Shown one piece after another: positions 3,457-13,205 of a DNA stretch of 32,570 nucleotides. The stretch covers positions 1-32,570 of the forward strand of contig NZ_CAMJCX010000017.1 in the NCBI RefSeq assembly GCF_946404245.1, in the 5' to 3' direction. The stretch is from an uncultured Methanobrevibacter sp. Its GTDB lineage: Archaea > Methanobacteriota > Methanobacteria > Methanobacteriales > Methanobacteriaceae. A program made the translations under genes and the position numbers. Each line of letters starts with the position of its first letter. Position 1 is the first letter of the stretch. The notes below the pieces were generated by a model that worked only from the letters and a program-made list of their open reading frames with translations, was not told the DNA's origin and did not search any database.

Positions 3457-3493
3457 AAAAAAAGAAAAACAAAAGCATAGTAAAACTATGCTT
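3457..3493 (-). terminator. intrinsic-type terminator of the first binding-protein gene
   Basis: On the minus strand a 9-bp perfect stem (AAGCATAGT / ACTATGCTT, 3-nt loop, 3473-3493) overlaps the TAG stop codon. It is followed by a T-rich run down to about 3457. Confidence 0.8.
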
Positions 3494-4457
3494 CCCAGAA
3501 TAATTTGTCATGTGATACAGTACTGTTTAAAATACCAATATCCACTTCAAGTTTTTGGAATGCATCAACATCTGATTTGAAACTGTCATCAATACCAGAA
3601 ATGAATGGGAAACTTTCAAGAGAAAGCACTTCTAGATCTGCATTGGAAACAATGTCTTCAGGCAGTAATGCTACAACTTTATCAGAACTACCGTTTTCAA
3701 TGTTGTCATTAATGAATTTGGTAGCGTTTTCATGAATAGCTAAAATATCTTTAGTTTTGTCTTCGTGGTTTTTGATAAAGTCATCAGATGCAACAACTAC
3801 ACAACATGGGTGGTTTGGTAAAATATCAGCTGAATCTTCTAAAACAACATTTCCACTGTCATTTGCAGCAATGGACACATAAGGTTGGAAAGTAATGATT
3901 CCGTCAATTTGTTTGGTTTTTAAAGCATCGTTCATGGATGGCACTTTCATAGCTGAAATGTTTAAGTCATCAGTGGACAAATTATTTTCTTTTAAGTAGT
4001 ATGAAAGCAATACATACTGAATTGAAGCTTCACCAGGAGTTGCAATTGATTTACCTTTCAAATCTGCTGCTGAAGTAATACCTGAATCAGAAGTTACAAT
4101 AATTCCACTACCTTCAGTTTGAGCAGCGGAAATAACTTTAACAGGAACACCTTTTTCAACAGAAGATAAAACAGGTGCGATTCCAACATATCCAACATCG
4201 ACTTCACCACTAGCCATAGCGGTCATTAAGTCTCCACCATTGTTGAATTGTACAAGTTCAGTAGTAATGTTTTTATCAGCATATAAACCTTGAGCGTCAG
4301 CAACGAATAAAGCTGCATCGTGGTCAGATGGTAAATATCCTATCTTTACAGTGTCATCTCCTCCACCTAAAAAGTCGAAAAGACCAGCACTAGCTGAACC
4401 CATTACTAAAAATGCAGCAAGTGCCAACACTAAAACAAATGTAATCTTTTTATTCAT
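3486..4457 (-). CDS. ABC-type solute-binding protein, NitT/TauT (SsuA-like) family, paralog 1
   Basis: This 323-residue protein has an N-terminal signal sequence (MNKKITFVLVLALAAFLVMG, then SASAG as likely cleavage site) and a periplasmic-binding fold of the NMT1/SsuA type. Typical segments are KIGYLPSDHDAALFVADAQG, NNGGDLMTAMASGEVDVGYVG and TPGEASIQ. A distinctive HPCCVVVA segment carries two adjacent cysteines. The ATG at 4457 is preferred because GGTGA lies five bases upstream; an in-frame GTG nine bases earlier overlaps that site. Family members bind sulfonates, taurine, nitrate or thiamine precursors, and the ligand here is unknown. No permease or ATPase gene lies nearby. A palindromic operator at 4533-4546 lies in its promoter, and a terminator overlaps its stop. 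It is closely similar to the protein at 7089-8027. Confidence 0.88.
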   Translation of the reverse strand: MNKKITFVLVLALAAFLVMGSASAGLFDFLGGGDDTVKIGYLPSDHDAALFVADAQGLYADKNITTELVQFNNGGDLMTAMASGEVDVGYVGIAPVLSSVEKGVPVKVISAAQTEGSGIIVTSDSGITSAADLKGKSIATPGEASIQYVLLSYYLKENNLSTDDLNISAMKVPSMNDALKTKQIDGIITFQPYVSIAANDSGNVVLEDSADILPNHPCCVVVASDDFIKNHEDKTKDILAIHENATKFINDNIENGSSDKVVALLPEDIVSNADLEVLSLESFPFISGIDDSFKSDVDAFQKLEVDIGILNSTVSHDKLFWEA

Positions 4458-4793
4458 TATTTTCACCGAATTAATTTAAATTAATTACAATTATTAATAT
4501 TAAATGTATATTATATATAAATTACTTTTAACATAACAATTGTTATAAATGAATCCCTAATTAACTATTAAAAGAAATCATATATAAATCTTTTTAAAAG
4601 TAAAGATTTTTTGACCAAATATATAATATTAGTATGACTATAATAATCAAAGACATACAATAAAAATAATTCAAAATAACTCTGCTAATTTTTTATTAAA
4701 AACAATAGTAATTTTGCAATATGTTAATTAATTTTACAAATCATAATCCAAACAATTCCCACATCATTATGAAAATAAATTAACTATTCAAAC
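4458..4793. other. intergenic region with binding-protein promoter; otherwise no gene seen
   Basis: These 336 bp lie between the ligase-like gene's stop and the binding-protein start, both on the minus strand. A TATA box (TTTATATA on minus, 4521-4514) lies about 57 bp upstream of the start codon, and the palindromic operator lies just upstream at 4533-4546. A second TATA-like TTTATAA overlaps the operator itself. The rest (about 4550-4790) is very AT-rich, with stops in all frames and no convincing structure. Confidence 0.5.
4533..4546. promoter_or_regulatory. operator site A (ATAACAATTGTTAT)
   Basis: This is a perfect 14-bp palindrome in the promoter of the first binding-protein gene. It lies 11 bp upstream of one TATA box and overlaps an alternative TATA-like sequence, so activation and repression are both possible. 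It belongs to a family of six near-identical sites in the window. Confidence 0.72.
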
Positions 4794-6185
4794 TTAATAT
4801 ACCTTACCATACTCTTTAATAATCTTCTCAATTGACATGTCATTCTGGATTGATTGCAATATGTCCCTTCCAGGATTAGTGTGCTTTTTAATACGTTCAT
4901 ATAATGGATTTAAGAATATTTCCTCGCCAATCCCTCTTTCTTTAAGACCATCGGCTGCAAGATCAACAATATCTCTAGACAACCTGCACAAATCATTCTT
5001 ATCAATAAATGAAGGAACTTCCTCCTGAATCAACAATTTCCTAAGTTCTGATGCTGTGTAACCATTATGATAAATCACATCATCATTATCAATAATGTAG
5101 CTTAACTCATCCAAATTGTCCTTTAAACCCAAATGGAATGCTGCTACACACATTGAATCTTTAATGGGTTGAGTGCATATGCTTCTGAATTCAACTGTTC
5201 CTCTAAAAGTCAAGTTAATAAATTTAAATGGTCTTAAGTATTTTATATCATTTATGCAAGGCTTAATGTCAATTTCCCGATATTCTCCATTGCAGTATAT
5301 TTCACCACGCACATAATCCCTTGCGAAATAGTCCAGGAGATTCATTGACGGAAAATTAATGTATGCTCCATCCCTCATGACACAATAAATATTCAATGAT
5401 TCAAGATATGACTGAAGATCATTGATGTCCTCAAAATCAACATCATAGGCACCTATATTGTGAGGGTTTACGCCATGGGTCGAATACTCCCAAAGTGCAT
5501 CCCTAAAGCATGTCAAGTGATTATGTTCTTCTATCAGAACAGAATTGGAGAACAATAACGCCTTGATTGGCTCTATTTTTGAAAATACATTAATGGTTTT
5601 TATTAAATTATCTTTTTGAACATCCAATTGAACCTGGGATGCTGATGAAAACATTCCATATTCAGGGTATTTATGAAAATACATTGGAATGTTGTTATAA
5701 TTTTTAAATGATTTCAAGTGATGATACAGCATAAGGTATCTTTCTGAAGGAATAGGCTTATTTATATTATATTTTCTGTATGGATTTATCCCCATTCCTG
5801 TTAATGTATGATTATATTCTTCAAATGATTCCTTAACAAATGAATAATAGTCACAAAAGCGTTCATTAATGGAAAACAGTTCCTTCTCTTTTCCCATTGC
5901 AAATTCAATATTGTTGTATGAACAGTCATAGCAGACAATATCATCAGTTTTAGGATTTTTTAAGGCAAATACATTGCCGTCATAGTCAATTCCATCCGCT
6001 TTAAAGTCACCGTATTGCTTTTGAAATTCAGAAGTTATTTTGTGAACTACATTAAAATCCACTGCCTGCTTATTTAAATTGATAATTGGAATTTCAATTT
6101 CAATACCAATGAAATCTTTAACCTGATTTGTTGGTTTTATAAACTCTTCATACAATTTATTTCTAACCAAATCATGACTAATCAT
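4794..6185 (-). CDS. glutamate-cysteine-ligase-like (GCS2-type) ATP-dependent ligase
   Basis: This 463-residue protein has the features of the GCS2/EgtA side of the glutamate-cysteine ligase family. It has an N-terminal acidic metal-binding strand (GIEIEIPI, about residues 27-34), a central ASQVQLDV strand (about 182-189), which resembles the QVNLD strand of plant and proteobacterial enzymes, and RGTVEFRS (about 328-335). Such enzymes join the gamma-carboxylate of glutamate to an amine, classically cysteine. The actual acceptor is unknown, and methanogens generally do not make glutathione. The ATG at 6185 is chosen because GGGAT lies seven bases upstream; an ATG at 6194 is too close to that site. 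Either start overlaps the end of the upstream amidotransferase gene, so the two are translationally coupled and controlled by the operator pair at 7002-7035. Confidence 0.75.
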   Translation of the reverse strand: MISHDLVRNKLYEEFIKPTNQVKDFIGIEIEIPIINLNKQAVDFNVVHKITSEFQKQYGDFKADGIDYDGNVFALKNPKTDDIVCYDCSYNNIEFAMGKEKELFSINERFCDYYSFVKESFEEYNHTLTGMGINPYRKYNINKPIPSERYLMLYHHLKSFKNYNNIPMYFHKYPEYGMFSSASQVQLDVQKDNLIKTINVFSKIEPIKALLFSNSVLIEEHNHLTCFRDALWEYSTHGVNPHNIGAYDVDFEDINDLQSYLESLNIYCVMRDGAYINFPSMNLLDYFARDYVRGEIYCNGEYREIDIKPCINDIKYLRPFKFINLTFRGTVEFRSICTQPIKDSMCVAAFHLGLKDNLDELSYIIDNDDVIYHNGYTASELRKLLIQEEVPSFIDKNDLCRLSRDIVDLAADGLKERGIGEEIFLNPLYERIKKHTNPGRDILQSIQNDMSIEKIIKEYGKVY

Positions 6186-6975
6186 TAATTTCATCCCTGT
6201 AAACTGTTTTTAAGAATTCTCCAATAGCCTTCTCATGAGCTTCAGTTAAAATGAATTCATTATCATGCTCTTCACTTTCAAAAATGATTTTCCCATCGAT
6301 TAATCCGAATAACTTATTCAATTCAACTGATTTCCAGTTTTCATCATCAGTTAATGGTGTGGATGCCACCAAAAATTCTTCGTCATTTTTAAGATAATAC
6401 AAGGAATCTCTCATGTTGGAATGAATATAAGTCAAGTCTCCATCATAAAATATCAAATTGAGCTTGTTGTTCTTGGATAAATCAGTGATTACTTCTGTTA
6501 AAAGATTGAACCTTTCCTTTATTGTTGATGGTGCATTTTTAGCTTTTTCAAACTCATTTACTTTATCGATTATGTATAAAAGTATTCGCTCAGAATCAGT
6601 GTCACCATTTTCCTTATCCTTATAATTATCCAGTTCGGGATAATCGAAAATGGTTCCGTTATGTATCAGCATCCATGACCGATTATTATCATCAGCTTCA
6701 ATAAACGGATGACAATTGGGAGATATAATTTCGCCCACGGTTGCTAATCTGATGTGAGCAAATACATTTTTACCAACAACGGGGTTGGATAATATATCTC
6801 GTAAGTATTGACTACATGTTGCTTTTATCGGTTCTTTACGTATAACAAATTCATCTGATTGCATGGTTGCCAATCCCCATCCATGTGGATGCTCTTCTGA
6901 ATGATTGTAGAAACATTCAAGGCACTCATTTACTTGTTTTGGCGTATTTGAATTAAAACAAAAAATTTCACACAT
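6178..6975 (-). CDS. class II glutamine amidotransferase (YafJ/EgtC-like Ntn hydrolase)
   Basis: This 265-residue protein carries the full class II amidotransferase signature. Cys2 is the nucleophile exposed after Met removal (MCEIFCFN). HGWGLA is at 31-36, the substrate Arg is in AHIRLATVG (73-81), and the oxyanion Asn-Gly is in IHNGT (104-108). GDTDSE (124-129) has an acidic substrate contact. There is no synthetase or isomerase domain, so it resembles stand-alone gamma-glutamyl amidohydrolases such as EgtC. GGGAGGAT precedes the ATG. Its gene overlaps the ligase-like gene downstream by a few bases. I infer that the pair first adds and then removes a gamma-glutamyl group, or handles a gamma-glutamyl substrate. 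The promoter has a TATA box at 7054-7047 and two operator copies. Confidence 0.85.
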   Translation of the reverse strand: MCEIFCFNSNTPKQVNECLECFYNHSEEHPHGWGLATMQSDEFVIRKEPIKATCSQYLRDILSNPVVGKNVFAHIRLATVGEIISPNCHPFIEADDNNRSWMLIHNGTIFDYPELDNYKDKENGDTDSERILLYIIDKVNEFEKAKNAPSTIKERFNLLTEVITDLSKNNKLNLIFYDGDLTYIHSNMRDSLYYLKNDEEFLVASTPLTDDENWKSVELNKLFGLIDGKIIFESEEHDNEFILTEAHEKAIGEFLKTVYRDEIND

Positions 6976-7088: not shown

Positions 7089-8027
7089 TTAACTACCATC
7101 CCAGAAAATTTTATCCTCAGAAATTGGTTTTTTGAGAACGCCCAACTCAACTTCCAAATTCATGAAATCGTTTACATCATCCTTGAAACTTTCATTTAGA
7201 CCTGAAATGAATGGGAAACCTGCAATAGCACTTTTCTCAACTTCAACATCACTGACAATATCAGAAGGTAAAAGGGTAGCTGCCTCATCGGTGTTGTTGT
7301 TGATGAAATCAGTTGCATTCTTGTGGATTTCCAAAATTGTGTTGGTTTCATTAGGATGATCTTTAATGAATTTATCGGAAGCCACTACAACACAGCACGG
7401 ATGGTTTGGCAAAATGTCAGCTGAATCTACCAATACTTTTGCACCGTTTTTCTCTGCAATGCTTACATAAGGTTCAAAAGTAATCATACCATCAATCTTG
7501 TTGGTTTTAAGCGCATCATTCATTGAAGGCACTTTCATTGCTGAAACTTTCACATCATTAATGGACATGCCATTTTGCTCCAAATAGTAAGTGAGCAACA
7601 TGTGCTGGATTGAAGCTTCACCAGGAGTGGCTATTTTTTTGCCTGCAAGGTCTGATACTGAATTGATGTTGGAATTTTTAGCAACGACAATACCTGATCC
7701 TTCAGTTTGGGCTGCTGAAATAACTTTGATAGGAACTCCTTTTTCAATTGAAGACAATACAGGAGTTATTCCAACATAACCTACATCGACATCACCACTT
7801 GCCATAGCAGTCATCAAGTCTCCTCCGTTATTGAACTGAACTAATTTAGTGTTAATACCGTTTTCTGCATATTTGCCCTGAGCATCTGCAACAAACAATG
7901 CGGCATCATGGTCAGAAGGCAAATAACCAATAGTTACTGTATCGCTACCCCCGCCCATGAGGAAATATCCTCCAATGGCAACAATAGCTACAACAGCAAT
8001 GATAATTGCGATAATCTTTTTATCCAT
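7089..8027 (-). CDS. ABC-type solute-binding protein, NitT/TauT (SsuA-like) family, paralog 2
   Basis: This 312-residue protein is a close paralog of the one at 3486-4457. The two share long stretches by eye, including GYLPSDHDAALFVADAQG, ISAAQTEGSGI, TPGEASIQ, KVPSMNDALKT and DSADILPNHPCCVVVAS. Its N-terminus is a hydrophobic segment (about residues 4-24) with no clear signal-peptidase site, so it may stay membrane-anchored, unlike paralog 1. GGTGAT precedes the ATG. No transporter subunits are adjacent. It is divergent from the methyltransferase gene, with only about 49 bp between the starts. It ends just before the promoter of the amidotransferase operon, with a T-run (minus strand, about 7070-7062) as likely terminator. 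I see no good operator copy in front of it. Confidence 0.87.
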   Translation of the reverse strand: MDKKIIAIIIAVVAIVAIGGYFLMGGGSDTVTIGYLPSDHDAALFVADAQGKYAENGINTKLVQFNNGGDLMTAMASGDVDVGYVGITPVLSSIEKGVPIKVISAAQTEGSGIVVAKNSNINSVSDLAGKKIATPGEASIQHMLLTYYLEQNGMSINDVKVSAMKVPSMNDALKTNKIDGMITFEPYVSIAEKNGAKVLVDSADILPNHPCCVVVASDKFIKDHPNETNTILEIHKNATDFINNNTDEAATLLPSDIVSDVEVEKSAIAGFPFISGLNESFKDDVNDFMNLEVELGVLKKPISEDKIFWDGS

Positions 8028-8691: not shown

Positions 8692-8892
8692 CTAACCCCC
8701 ATATATAATCTGAACCAGCTGAATCTCATCTCCATCTTCAATCACACTTTCCTCGATTGTCAATTCCCCATTCTGTTTTGCAACAACAGTTTGTGCAGAC
8801 AAATCCAATTCAGACAATAGATCATTGATTGTAAAATTCTCAGCTAACTCTCTAATCTCATCAATTTGTTTATATTTTAATCTAAATTCCAT
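8692..8892 (-). CDS. MoaD/ThiS-like ubiquitin-fold sulfur carrier protein
   Basis: This 66-residue beta-grasp protein ends in the exposed C-terminus IIYGG. The Gly-Gly tail is the site that E1-like enzymes adenylate and that carries thiocarboxylate sulfur in MoaD, ThiS and archaeal SAMPs. It also has DLLSELDL and the VIEDGDEIQLVQ strand typical of the fold. The ATG at 8892 is chosen because GGAGG lies nine bases upstream; the ATG at 8901 touches that site. The start overlaps the end of the upstream oxidoreductase gene, so the two are translationally coupled. The likely adenylating partner is the E1-like protein at 11590-12345, in a separate operon with the same operator. Confidence 0.85.
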   Translation of the reverse strand: MEFRLKYKQIDEIRELAENFTINDLLSELDLSAQTVVAKQNGELTIEESVIEDGDEIQLVQIIYGG

Positions 8893-10210
8893 ATTTTTCA
8901 TCCTCCAGATTTTGATTTACTATTTTTGCCACTTTTTTTGCTATTGCAACAATTGTCAATATCGGCGGCCTTCCGGGAGCTTCAGGAATTACACTTGCAT
9001 CACAAACGTACAACCCATTTATTTCACTTTCAAAATTATTGTCCACAACTTCACCAACAGCTGCAGTCCCTCCAGGATGCGCTCCCTTAAGTGATGTCGC
9101 AACAATCGATTTAGGATCCACTCCCAATTTTAACAATATTTTTACTGCTTTATCATATCCTTCCTTTATTAAATCAACATCGACTTTAGCAAGTGTTTTT
9201 TTGATTTGGCCTTTCTCGTCAATGTTTCCGATACAAGTATCTGCGAATTTAAGCATTAATCCAATTATGTCTTTATCATCTGCATTAATACCCTTTTTGG
9301 CCATTAAAGGTTTCAATTGCATTGAGTAATGAGGTGATAAAAAATAAGGTCCGAATTCTGCCTTAACTCCCATCATAAGCTCATTTTTTAAATTTGCATC
9401 TTTTAGGTATCCTCCAACTGTTGTGAAAATATCAAAGAAAATGCTCTCGCCTACATTCTCAACACCTGAATTTTTCAATATCACTGGCGTGTTAAGGGCT
9501 CCTGCTGAGACAATAACCCTTTTTGCCTTGAAGATATGCTTTTCATTATTTTTATCAAGTCCAACCACACCAGTTACTCGATTGTTTTCATGTAAAATTT
9601 CAAATACTGTAAAGTTTTCAATTAGATTGGCACCATATTCCACAGCTTCACGAACGAAGTATGTCGCATCCCATTTTGCATCAAATACACAGCCATTAAC
9701 ACATTTTCCACAAAATTGGCATTTTTCAAAATTGATGAACTTTGGCATCGGCTCAACAATGTAGCCCAGCTCCTCACCGGCACTTGCAATTAAATTAGTG
9801 GAATGACCCCATAATTTCTTGGGGAAATATTTAACGTTAAGCTCACCGCTAGCTTCCAGAAGTTCTTCAAAGATATTTAAATTCTTATCTTCAAACTGCT
9901 GCATTATTGAGTTTGTATAACACCCACTGCATGAAAAACATGCATTTCCTATTGAAGAGGTAGTCGTTCCCCCAATCTCTTCGATGTTAGTTAAATCCAA
10001 AGGATATGTCAAAAATTCATATTTCAGTTTGTCTTCGTCTGAAAGATTATTTTCTAAATGAATTTGCCTTGTTTTCATATGTTTTACATAGGTCCCATTA
10101 TTTTGATTGCTTCCCTTGTCTAGAATTAAGATGTTTTTTGATTTTAGACTTAGATCCTTTGCAACAGTTGCACCTCCTGCCCCCGTTCCAATTACAATAG
10201 CATCGTAGAT
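8882..10210 (-). CDS. FAD-dependent GMC-family oxidoreductase with a 4Fe-4S motif
   Basis: This protein of about 442 residues starts with an FAD Rossmann motif (YDAIVIGTGAGGATVAKDL). It has CFSCSGC and then CQFCGKCVNGC, a CxxCxxCxxxC cluster motif in the middle. It ends with the GMC-oxidoreductase C-terminal signature (HPGGTAAVGEVV, then LYVCDASVIPEAPGRPP). It probably oxidises an alcohol or related substrate, or reduces one, with electrons passing through FAD and an Fe-S centre. The start is unusual. A good GGAGGTG at 10222-10216 is followed at normal spacing by ATC (10210-10208), and no ATG, GTG or TTG lies in frame between that site and the FAD motif. The only upstream in-frame candidate is a TTG at 10237 inside the operator. 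It is coupled to the MoaD-like gene and controlled by operator C. Confidence 0.82.
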   Translation of the reverse strand: MYDAIVIGTGAGGATVAKDLSLKSKNILILDKGSNQNNGTYVKHMKTRQIHLENNLSDEDKLKYEFLTYPLDLTNIEEIGGTTTSSIGNACFSCSGCYTNSIMQQFEDKNLNIFEELLEASGELNVKYFPKKLWGHSTNLIASAGEELGYIVEPMPKFINFEKCQFCGKCVNGCVFDAKWDATYFVREAVEYGANLIENFTVFEILHENNRVTGVVGLDKNNEKHIFKAKRVIVSAGALNTPVILKNSGVENVGESIFFDIFTTVGGYLKDANLKNELMMGVKAEFGPYFLSPHYSMQLKPLMAKKGINADDKDIIGLMLKFADTCIGNIDEKGQIKKTLAKVDVDLIKEGYDKAVKILLKLGVDPKSIVATSLKGAHPGGTAAVGEVVDNNFESEINGLYVCDASVIPEAPGRPPILTIVAIAKKVAKIVNQNLEDEKYGI

Positions 10211-10230
10211 AAACCCACCTCCAAAAAATA

Positions 10231-10244
10231 TTAACAATTGTTAT
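10231..10244. promoter_or_regulatory. operator site C before the oxidoreductase-MoaD operon
   Basis: A perfect 12-bp palindrome TAACAATTGTTA lies at 10232-10243, flanked by further conserved bases. In gene sense it overlaps a TATA-like TTATATAA and lies nine bases upstream of the GGAGGTG site. The surrounding 20-mer, ATATAACAATTGTTAATATT in gene sense, is identical to that at site E before fdhD. Confidence 0.78.
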
Positions 10245-10575: not shown

Positions 10576-11589
10576 ATGAATTTAGAAAATAAAATTAAAA
10601 ATTTTGAAAATATTTTAAGAGATAAAAAAGTTGCAATCGGATTTTCAGGAGGTGCCGATTCAACATTGATTGCATATTTATCTTCCAAGGTAGCGAAAGA
10701 CACATTGGCAATTACAATTGACAATCACCTGCTTCCGACAGGTTTTGTTGAAAACACAAAAAGAGTTGCCAAATCTTTTGGAATAAAACACGAAATAATT
10801 GACATTAACTTTTATGAAAATGAATACTTTTTGATGAACGATTCCAAAAGATGCTATAACTGCAGAAACTTGATGTATTCAAAAATTGAAAAGACCGCAC
10901 ATGAAAATGGCTTTGATTTTATTTGTGACGGAAATAACATCAGTGATTTGGTAATCGACAGACCGGGAATATTAGTTACCTATAAAAAAGATTTTAAAAC
11001 GCCGTTTATTACAGCCAAATTAACTTCTAAAGAAATTCACGCATATTTAAACAGGAACAATATAGCCTATTCCAGGTCAACCACATGCCTTGCAACCAGA
11101 ATACCTACGGATACCCGAACTACTCCTGAAAAAATTCAAAGAGTTAGTCGTTGCGAAGACTACATTTTAGCTAACACTAACTGTGAAATCGTCAAAGTTA
11201 GAGACAATGGAAAGTTTGGTATTGTTGAAGTGGATAACTTGAATGAAATTTTATCCAACGACAAATATAAACAAATCAATGATGAATTAAAAAGCCAAGG
11301 ATTTAGAAAAGTTGGATTAAATTTATCGCCAATCGATGATGATGAGTTCATCAGTATTGACTTCTGCGAGGATTCATTTTCATACCAACTCCCATTTACA
11401 ATAAACCTTGAAAATACCGCAAAGCAATTAGAAGAAATAAAATTAGAAAATAATGAAAAAATCGAGCTTGAAAAGATTACAATCCATGAAAGCGGATTAA
11501 TAGAAGGACATGATTTGAAAAATTATGAAATTGCATTAGATGCATTCATGGAGACATTACCAAAATTAAGAAGAAATATAGGTGATTAA
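10576..11589 (+). CDS. larE: LarE-like ATP-pyrophosphatase sulfur transferase
   Basis: This 337-residue protein has the PP-loop SGGADST (residues 24-30), which adenylates a substrate carboxylate in LarE. It has three cysteines in family positions: Cys93 and Cys96 in RCYNCR, and Cys171 in STTCLATR. Cys171 corresponds to the sacrificial cysteine of Lactobacillus LarE. In archaeal and Thermotoga enzymes three such cysteines are reported to hold a 4Fe-4S cluster that passes on sulfur, so this copy is probably catalytic rather than sacrificial. It is some 60-80 residues longer than usual at the C-terminus (about 255-337), with no recognised domain there. LarA, LarB and LarC are absent nearby, so the real substrate is unlikely to be the nickel-pincer cofactor. 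AAAGGG precedes the ATG. Its stop abuts the start of the E1-like gene. Confidence 0.83.
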   Translation: MNLENKIKNFENILRDKKVAIGFSGGADSTLIAYLSSKVAKDTLAITIDNHLLPTGFVENTKRVAKSFGIKHEIIDINFYENEYFLMNDSKRCYNCRNLMYSKIEKTAHENGFDFICDGNNISDLVIDRPGILVTYKKDFKTPFITAKLTSKEIHAYLNRNNIAYSRSTTCLATRIPTDTRTTPEKIQRVSRCEDYILANTNCEIVKVRDNGKFGIVEVDNLNEILSNDKYKQINDELKSQGFRKVGLNLSPIDDDEFISIDFCEDSFSYQLPFTINLENTAKQLEEIKLENNEKIELEKITIHESGLIEGHDLKNYEIALDAFMETLPKLRRNIGD

Positions 11590-12345
11590 ATGCCAACAAG
11601 ATACATTGGTGACGGATACTGGGAAATAGCTTCCAGACAAATGAGCATAGTGACAAGAAGTGAACAGGAAAGATTCAAAGATGCAAAAATCACAGTGATA
11701 GGCTGTGGTGGAATCGGCGGCGAAACCATTGAAATGCTTGCAAGAATGGGAATTGGTGAGCTGGTTTTGGTTGATAAGGATGCATTTGATCTTTCAAACC
11801 TGAACAGGCAAACATTGGCAAACATTTCTGATTTGGGTCTTGATAAAAGTGCAGTGGCGAAGGAGAAAGTCAGACTTATCAATCCCTATGTTAAAGTCAC
11901 CACCTTCAATGAACACATAGACCAAAGCAACATCGAGAAGGTCATTGGAGACTCGGATATTGTAATAGATGCGCTTGACAATGTTTTAACAAGAGTCATT
12001 GTTTCAAGAAAAGCAAAAGAAAAAGGAATTCCATACATTCATGGAGCAATACATGGAACTTTAGGTCAAATCACCGTATTTTTACCAAACAGTGATAAAA
12101 CTTATGAAGAAATGTTTAACCTGCCTTCAATCGGCAAGGAATTAAACGAAGAAACAGTTGAAGCTTTAAAAAATGTAACTTCAGGAGTACCACCAGTCAT
12201 CGGACCGACACCGAATTTAATAGGATGTCTTGAAGCATTTGAAGCATATAAAATAATAACTGGAGTAGGTAAAGTTACCGTAGCTCCAAAAATATTAACC
12301 TTTGACTTATTAGATTTAAGTTCATTCTCTTTAGATGAACTTTAA
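11590..12345 (+). CDS. E1-like adenylyltransferase (HesA/MoeB/ThiF family)
   Basis: This 251-residue protein has the nucleotide-binding loop VIGCGGIGGE, the Arg finger in NLNRQT, the acidic VLVDKD strand, and the catalytic Asp in VIDALDN. Such enzymes adenylate the C-terminal glycine of a MoaD/ThiS/SAMP-type carrier. The partner is presumably the GG-ending protein at 8692-8892. The only cysteines are in the P-loop and in LIGCLEAFEA. The CxxC zinc sites of MoeB and the transfer cysteine of ThiF (near SGVPPVIGP) are missing. Sulfur must therefore come from another protein, and LarE, encoded immediately upstream with no spacer, is the obvious candidate. GGTGAT in the end of the larE gene serves as ribosome-binding site. 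The gene converges with fdhD, five bases away. Confidence 0.87.
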   Translation: MPTRYIGDGYWEIASRQMSIVTRSEQERFKDAKITVIGCGGIGGETIEMLARMGIGELVLVDKDAFDLSNLNRQTLANISDLGLDKSAVAKEKVRLINPYVKVTTFNEHIDQSNIEKVIGDSDIVIDALDNVLTRVIVSRKAKEKGIPYIHGAIHGTLGQITVFLPNSDKTYEEMFNLPSIGKELNEETVEALKNVTSGVPPVIGPTPNLIGCLEAFEAYKIITGVGKVTVAPKILTFDLLDLSSFSLDEL

Positions 12346-12350
12346 ATCAT

Positions 12351-13181
12351 CTATTTTTCTAAATTTACTCTTTCCGGTGCAGTGTAAACAGTAAATCTGT
12401 TGTCACGTACAAAACCAACCATAGTGATGTTTCCTGCACGTGCCACATCAATACCTGATGATGCAGGTGCGGCATTTGAAATGATTATCGGAATTCCAAC
12501 CCTGATTACTTTTATCAGCATGTCAGCAGGCATTCTTCCACTATATGAAATATAACATTTTGAAAAGTCATAACCCTCTTTTGAAGCGGCACCTATTACC
12601 TTGTCAACCGCAACGTGACGGCTCACATCTTCACGGATGATAATGTTGTCACCATATTTCAGCTGTGCAACATGCACCCCTGCGGTCTTTTGCCAGATTT
12701 TTGCTTCATCAGTCAGATGTTTGATATCCTTGATTATTTGAGTAGCGTTTATAGTTAAATCTGACGTATTGGGCTCTATTGTTTTTAGCTCAGATCTGAT
12801 TCCTCCCGCATTGTCAGAGTTCACCCCCTGATATTCCAGAAGTCTGCAAACGCATGCATGTTCGCAGTTTCCTTTTCTCTCCTGGACAATGCCTTCCTGT
12901 TCAAGATCTTCTTCAGGATTGTGTGTGAGTTTTGTTGAAACAAGCACGTTTGTTCCGTCAAGTTTAATAGATTCTATATCTGAGTAATCTTTTATTAAAC
13001 CTTCACCAAGACAATATCCTATTGCAAAGTCTTTTAAATCTTTAGGATATGTGGAAAATTTCCTTGGGGGCAAATAATCTATGAACAAATAAGTATATTC
13101 ATCATCAACACTGTTTTCTTTAATTGTCTTATATTCACCATCTTTCCATTGGATAACATCAGTTTGTCTTAAAAATTCCAT
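12351..13181 (-). CDS. fdhD: FdhD-like sulfurtransferase
   Basis: This 276-residue protein matches the FdhD family, which moves sulfur to the molybdenum/tungsten cofactor of formate dehydrogenase. Family segments are TAGVHVAQL, REDVSRHVAVDKVIG, SGRMPADMLIKV and the C-terminal VGFVRDNRFTVYT. Departures from the consensus as I remember it include Ser for Gly and Val for Asn in EDVGRHNA. The usual CGxCG loop is replaced by Cys106, Cys110 and Cys112 in NCEHACVC. The ATG at 13181 is preferred because GAGGT lies eight bases upstream; the longer frame from a GTG at 13196 overlaps that site. Operator E is just upstream. Formate dehydrogenase maturation is one reading; a dedicated sulfur-relay role with the co-regulated LarE, E1 and MoaD-like proteins is another. 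Confidence 0.87.
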   Translation of the reverse strand: MEFLRQTDVIQWKDGEYKTIKENSVDDEYTYLFIDYLPPRKFSTYPKDLKDFAIGYCLGEGLIKDYSDIESIKLDGTNVLVSTKLTHNPEEDLEQEGIVQERKGNCEHACVCRLLEYQGVNSDNAGGIRSELKTIEPNTSDLTINATQIIKDIKHLTDEAKIWQKTAGVHVAQLKYGDNIIIREDVSRHVAVDKVIGAASKEGYDFSKCYISYSGRMPADMLIKVIRVGIPIIISNAAPASSGIDVARAGNITMVGFVRDNRFTVYTAPERVNLEK

Positions 13182-13205
13182 TTTTTTCAACCTCACTTAT
13201 AAATA

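Follow-up and report, generated by a model that had tools for sequence, protein, structure and literature searches.

An ATP-dependent ligase gene and a class II amidohydrolase gene lie together in a stretch of DNA from an uncultured Methanobrevibacter sp. (contig NZ_CAMJCX010000017.1; 32,570 nucleotides, hereafter the window), and the question raised by this locus is which molecule such a pair would first load with a gamma-glutamyl group and then relieve of it. The original prediction held that the two genes overlap, and both open reading frames were indeed found to do so on the minus strand (Table 1), an arrangement that probably couples their translation. Our answer, given with moderate confidence, is that the amidohydrolase (AMI) and the ligase (LIG) form a gamma-glutamylation and de-glutamylation couple for cysteine.

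Table 1. Coordinates of the features discussed (positions are those of the window unless a locus or contig is named).
Feature	Position	Strand	Evidence
LIG, divergent member of the plant-type glutamate-cysteine ligase superfamily, ATP-dependent; proposed gamma-glutamyl ligase of cysteine metabolism	4794..6194	-	TIGR01436, hhalign, Foldseek, motifs
AMI, stand-alone class II (Ntn, N-terminal Cys) amidohydrolase, EgtC/YafJ/Dug3-like; proposed gamma-glutamyl hydrolase	6178..6975	-	PF13230, EgtC model, 1TE5, invariant residues
17 bases shared by the end of AMI and the start of LIG	6178..6194	-	ORF coordinates
AT-rich intergenic gap, the place of GshA in most relatives; GshA absent here	4467..4793	.	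sequence read
SsuA-family substrate-binding protein, upstream neighbour; pathway membership putative	7089..8027	-	TIGR01728 1.6e-55, above cut-off; PF13379 2.2e-41
Second SsuA-family substrate-binding protein, downstream neighbour	3486..4466	-	TIGR01728 5.9e-49, above cut-off
GshA-LIG fusion	L180:7236-9878	-	
AMI-like stretch with many stop codons	G006:C55:23257-23930		
YDCGPT family loci	L190:7710-8330, L181:4444-5064, L186:10881-11501, L221:5345-5962, L111:9392-10012		
ECF-type S components	L121:5317-5853, L115:3208-3780, L118:119-703		PF07155

AMI, a protein of 265 aa, belongs to the class II glutamine amidotransferase fold. The GATase_4 model PF13230 matches it well above its cut-off (3.3e-32; 112 bits against 23), and the N-terminal cysteine and the R, N-G and D motifs of the fold are all in place. 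As read from the sequence, the catalytic cysteine sits after the initiator methionine, and this residue (Cys2), R76, N106-G107 and T126-D127 are invariant across 21 archaeal and bacterial relatives, which bears out the earlier description of an amidotransferase with Cys2 and its substrate residues intact. The EgtC model TIGR03442 also recognizes AMI, at a level below that of an EgtC equivalog (3.9e-20; 72.2 bits against a cut-off of 218.65). The closest PDB match, 1TE5, is deposited as a conserved hypothetical protein. AlphaFold models of AMI (pLDDT 61) and LIG (pLDDT 56) were poor because the alignments were shallow.

LIG (466 aa) had been called a GCS2-type ligase, a label that holds in the broad sense and fails in the narrow one. 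There were no Pfam matches at E<=1, and the GCS2 model PF04107 missed the protein in both protein and genome-wide searches, so that LIG is formally not a GCS2 protein; one of its deep relatives (L188) barely reaches that model, at 21.1 against a cut-off of 21. Membership in the wider GCS2 superfamily is nevertheless clear from homology and motifs over the full length. Comparison of the LIG profile by hhalign with plant-type and proteobacterial glutamate-cysteine ligases and with clostridial GCS2 proteins gave probabilities of 98.6-98.7% from end to end, and the G-E-x-E, Q/N-x-E, Q-V-x, R-x-x-x-W and E-x-R motifs are present. The plant-type model TIGR01436 likewise spans the whole of LIG (1.4e-13), its 50.1 bits against a cut-off of 463 placing LIG below the equivalog level. 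Residues E32, E34, E97, Q187, Q189, D191, R231, W235, E335 and R337 are conserved, and LIG thereby keeps the motifs common to all compared relatives of glutamate-cysteine ligase (G-E-x-E at 30-34, E97, Q187-x-Q189-x-D191, R231/W235 and E335/R337), with residue roles assigned from motifs, not structure. The best Foldseek match was the plant glutamate-cysteine ligase 2GWC (2e-12), and coming from a low-confidence model it counts as support for the fold only.

Superfamily, fold and full-length catalytic motifs are thus common to LIG and the plant and alpha-proteobacterial ligases, but LIG differs from them in its 19% profile-level identity, its model scores, an insertion and its acceptor-side motifs. 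On the presumed acceptor side, DCSYNN replaces LEPGGQ, SxCxQPI replaces GADGGPW, and an NPHNIG region has been inserted, all of them family-specific. This departure from canonical glutamate-cysteine ligases counts against the cysteine couple. Within the LIG tree, sequences from gut methanogens cluster together, and a single clade of all archaea was neither recovered nor rejected (AU p 0.11). A plasmid search for LIG returned only distant proteobacterial and haloarchaeal relatives.

The strongest feature of the two genes is their company. LIG is present in 48 of 67 genomes of the genus, and a close AMI (68-92% identity) is found in the same 48/48 and in 0/19 of those lacking LIG (Fisher p ~4e-17), so the pairing is not due to chance. 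AMI immediately precedes LIG on the same strand in 41/41 genus loci, and most of these show an overlap of anything from a few to a few dozen bases. Scanning of named genomes placed the family in Methanosphaera, Lachnospiraceae, Ruminococcus and other Clostridia as well. Beyond the genus, in other Methanobacteriaceae and in Clostridia, AMI accompanies LIG in 52/54 genomes, bringing the overall figure to 100/102; both exceptions are fragmentary, one being 63% complete and the other carrying LIG at a contig edge. A contig binned as a Bacillales bacterium (L107, CAMOWA010000006.1) has the same gene neighbourhood as a Methanobacteriaceae locus (L106) and is probably a binning error. A fusion candidate from these two loci (n27) was dropped as an unrelated repeat-rich surface-type protein.

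A third gene, encoding about 460 aa, follows LIG in 37/41 genus loci. Its sequence identifies it as a GshA-type gamma-glutamylcysteine synthetase, with matches to PF04262 (2.5e-90), to the GshF model (1.8e-119, just under the cut-off) and to PDB entry 3LN7 (4e-68). GshA homologues in Methanosphaera and Methanobrevibacter have previously been noted as putative gamma-glutamylcysteine synthetases (PMC7278568), and the original prediction oversimplified in stating that glutathione is normally missing from methanogens. Outside the genus, GshA was found in 14/15 of the LIG genomes sampled, and the complete set of three is present in most bacterial loci, arranged as GshA-AMI-LIG, LIG-GshA-AMI or AMI-LIG-GshA. 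The partner GshA is of the type found in GshF, the fused GshA-GshB enzyme of bifunctional glutathione synthesis, but in the relatives it is a protein of 462 aa that comes without the glutathione synthetase half, the ATP-grasp GshB domain. In one Lachnospiraceae-family genome (G244), a single ORF of 880-888 aa beside AMI joins a GshF-type GshA domain to LIG, imitating the layout of GshF with LIG where GshB would be. As a single case, this fusion is suggestive.

The window itself departs from the three-gene pattern. GshA was found nowhere in its genome, a result that describes an assembly 87% complete and not the organism, and the pair also occurs without GshA in G010, at 99% completeness. Together with G152, G173, G330 and G389, the window genome (G000) and G010 make up six genomes with AMI and LIG in which GshA is missing. 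In the nearest relative of the window genome (G021), GshA adjoins a second AMI at another locus. In G006, a genome without LIG, a decayed AMI-like stretch adjoins an intact GshA and suggests that the pair was lost there.

The main weak point of the cysteine couple is that LIG and GshA usually share a genome. LIG may therefore lengthen gamma-Glu-Cys and not form it, in which case a new thiol would result. LIG would then carry out a second step, for instance by coupling an amine to the carboxyl group of cysteine or by adding a second gamma-glutamate, after which AMI would trim off the gamma-glutamyl residue. This would yield a new low-molecular-weight thiol of the form Cys-X or gamma-Glu-Cys-X, and gamma-glutamate would serve partly as a protecting group. 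LIG and GshA occurring together in most genomes, and once as a fusion, is hard to explain if both catalyze the same reaction, and this counts against the cysteine couple. The second step also draws on the position of LIG in the fusion, the recurrence of the three-gene set in several orders, and acceptor-side motifs unlike those of canonical enzymes. Against it stand the six genomes with no GshA and the fact that the fusion is one case; furthermore, known members of the LIG superfamily activate the gamma-carboxyl of glutamate, not the carboxyl of cysteine. We regard a second step as possible but doubtful. In a fuller version of this proposal, gut methanogens and Clostridia would convert gamma-Glu-Cys into a cysteine-based low-molecular-weight thiol not described before; LIG would be a new type of enzyme for this step, AMI would complete or recycle the product by taking off the gamma-glutamyl group, and the fusion would be the bifunctional form. 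This seems to us rather unlikely. The pair without GshA in the window genome and G010 weighs against the cysteine couple as well.

Genomes of Clostridia separate AMI from any one ligase. Among 299 Lachnospiraceae genomes, AMI is present in 33, LIG in 12 and GshA in 23; AMI accompanies LIG in 12/12 (p 4e-13) and GshA in 18/23 (p 8e-16). Where LIG is missing, AMI is often the immediate neighbour of GshA; nine loci pair AMI with GshA and have no LIG (L190-L194, L198, L199, L202 and L203). In 6/10 further loci read, a canonical GCS2 ligase is directly beside AMI while GshA and LIG are both missing (L210, L213, L215, L216, L218 and L219), and at L220 AMI again adjoins a canonical GCS2 ligase, with GshA elsewhere. 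The ligase that accompanies clostridial AMI can thus be GshA, LIG or canonical GCS2. What stays constant is AMI plus some ligase of the glutamate-cysteine type, and this is the main reason why gamma-glutamyl-cysteine or a derivative is most likely the substrate of AMI and why LIG appears to belong to a set of ligases that replace one another or cooperate. The same loci bear on the idea that AMI is a glutaminase subunit of LIG, channelling ammonia from glutamine to a ligase that would amidate a carboxylate such as gamma-Glu-Cys. Obligate pairing, overlapping genes and the distant relationship of the LIG superfamily to glutamine synthetases (weak fold matches) would suit such a subunit, but AMI is also found beside GshA or canonical GCS2 in the absence of LIG, and in G114 both genes are present and lie ~100 kb apart, making this arrangement highly improbable.

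The bacterial setting of the pair is cysteine and sulfur assimilation. Clostridial neighbours include the cysteine synthase CysK, MetB/MetY (cystathionine synthase/lyase, O-acetylhomoserine-type), the C-S lyase PatB, a CymR-like Rrf2 regulator, MetNIQ transporters, a sulfite reductase/TusA/ThiS/ThiF block and SufCBDSU (the SUF operon). The archaeal setting, where SsuA-type binding proteins, LarE, a ThiF-like protein and FdhD recur, is consistent with sulfur handling, less specifically than the bacterial one. The operon context comes from relatives, the window's own neighbours being less telling, and this too counts against the cysteine couple.

Binding proteins of the SsuA/taurine type flank the pair in the window and in many relatives, and with the noncanonical acceptor side of LIG they raise the possibility that LIG adds gamma-glutamate to an amine other than cysteine, for example taurine, an imported sulfonate or a precursor of coenzyme M, and that AMI later takes it off. 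This is improbable, as SsuA-family proteins recur beside the archaeal pair and none were seen beside bacterial loci, whose homologues sit with cysteine genes, and as GshA is the recurrent partner. A link to coenzyme M was dropped when the distribution of ComA, an enzyme of its synthesis present in almost all genomes whether or not they carry the pair, did not follow that of AMI and LIG. Beyond the flanking sulfonate-type binding-protein genes, we found no support for a coenzyme M or taurine substrate. The prediction of a gamma-glutamylated intermediate survives insofar as ligase and hydrolase belong together outside the ergothioneine pathway; its emphasis on a new non-cysteine intermediate (taurine or coenzyme M precursors) is not supported, because of GshA in the operons, the clostridial cysteine-gene neighbours and the independence of ComA from the pair.

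Several other genes recur in these neighbourhoods. The two SsuA-family proteins of the window are closely alike, and no matching permease or ATPase was identified beside them. At 10576-13196 of the window, genes for a LarE-like sulfur transferase and a ThiF-like adenylyltransferase converge on an FdhD gene, and in several relatives FdhD is the gene straight after GshA in the AMI-LIG-GshA operon. A GMC-family oxidoreductase with cysteine-rich CxxC motifs and weak matches to 4Fe-4S ferredoxin models (window 8882-10237) is near the pair in about one-quarter of relatives. In Clostridia, an unannotated family of ~206 aa recurs beside AMI or LIG; its members carry a YDCGPT motif, look papain/C39-like and have no Pfam match, and three times the gene adjoins one for a PepT-like M20 peptidase. 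ECF-type S components near the triad in several Clostridia hint at small-molecule import.

A close functional precedent is EgtA/EgtC of mycobacterial ergothioneine synthesis, which like AMI and LIG combines a GCS2-superfamily glutamate-cysteine ligase with a stand-alone class II gamma-glutamyl amidohydrolase. By this analogy AMI and LIG may work like EgtA/EgtC, but in a pathway other than ergothioneine synthesis, which is unlikely for the pair because EgtD is absent: PF10017 was found in 0/67 genus genomes, with positive controls, in agreement with the original observation of no EgtD. In further contrast to EgtA/EgtC, LIG does not match the EgtA model, AMI matches the EgtC model at 72 bits against 219, and the pair occurs in anaerobes in a setting of cysteine metabolism. 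The resemblance to EgtC, and the PatB-family C-S lyase adjoining several loci (including L108 and L193), would also fit AMI acting on S-conjugates or bound gamma-Glu-Cys, in a sequence of ligation, reaction at sulfur with an enzyme or electrophile, removal of glutamate by AMI, and cleavage of the remainder by the lyase. We give this scheme a slim chance, since ordinary methionine synthesis also employs PatB and MetB, the search turned up no conserved enzyme for the conjugation, the genus is without EgtD, and no C-S lyase was recognized among annotated genes beside the archaeal pair. Another parallel is the yeast Dug2-Dug3 complex of glutathione degradation, in which a class II GATase-like protein cleaves a gamma-glutamyl-cysteine bond, as AMI is predicted to do. 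PepT-like M20 peptidases beside AMI (L181, L186 and L190) extend this likeness, within some Clostridia; the DUG system, however, has no ligase.

We favour the cysteine couple because AMI is obligate with LIG, the ligase is exchanged, GshA is its partner and once its fusion, cysteine genes are its neighbours, and the catalytic motifs are shared. From this we infer substrates, direction and physiological role as follows. LIG, with ATP, would link glutamate through its gamma-carboxyl to an amine, most likely that of cysteine, of a closely related sulfur amino acid or of a derivative, with GshA-type gamma-glutamylcysteine synthetase joining in from the same operon in most relatives. The N-terminal cysteine of AMI would hydrolyze the gamma-glutamyl bond, giving back glutamate and the cysteine moiety. 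Together the enzymes would maintain a reversible pool of gamma-glutamyl-cysteine, possibly co-regulated with cysteine and methionine synthesis, that may serve as a cysteine reserve, thiol buffer or carrier.

To our knowledge, the low-molecular-weight thiols used by methanogens and many gut Clostridia are poorly known. No mention of AMI and LIG as partners of GshA was found in the literature searched, subscription literature lying outside that search. A pair common to gut methanogens and gut bacteria points to unstudied cysteine handling in microbes that shun oxygen. If our proposal is true, a cysteine gamma-glutamylation cycle common to methanogens and Clostridia of the rumen would account for the storage or buffering of cysteine in these organisms, and if LIG instead performs a second step, there would be a new thiol cofactor to be found.
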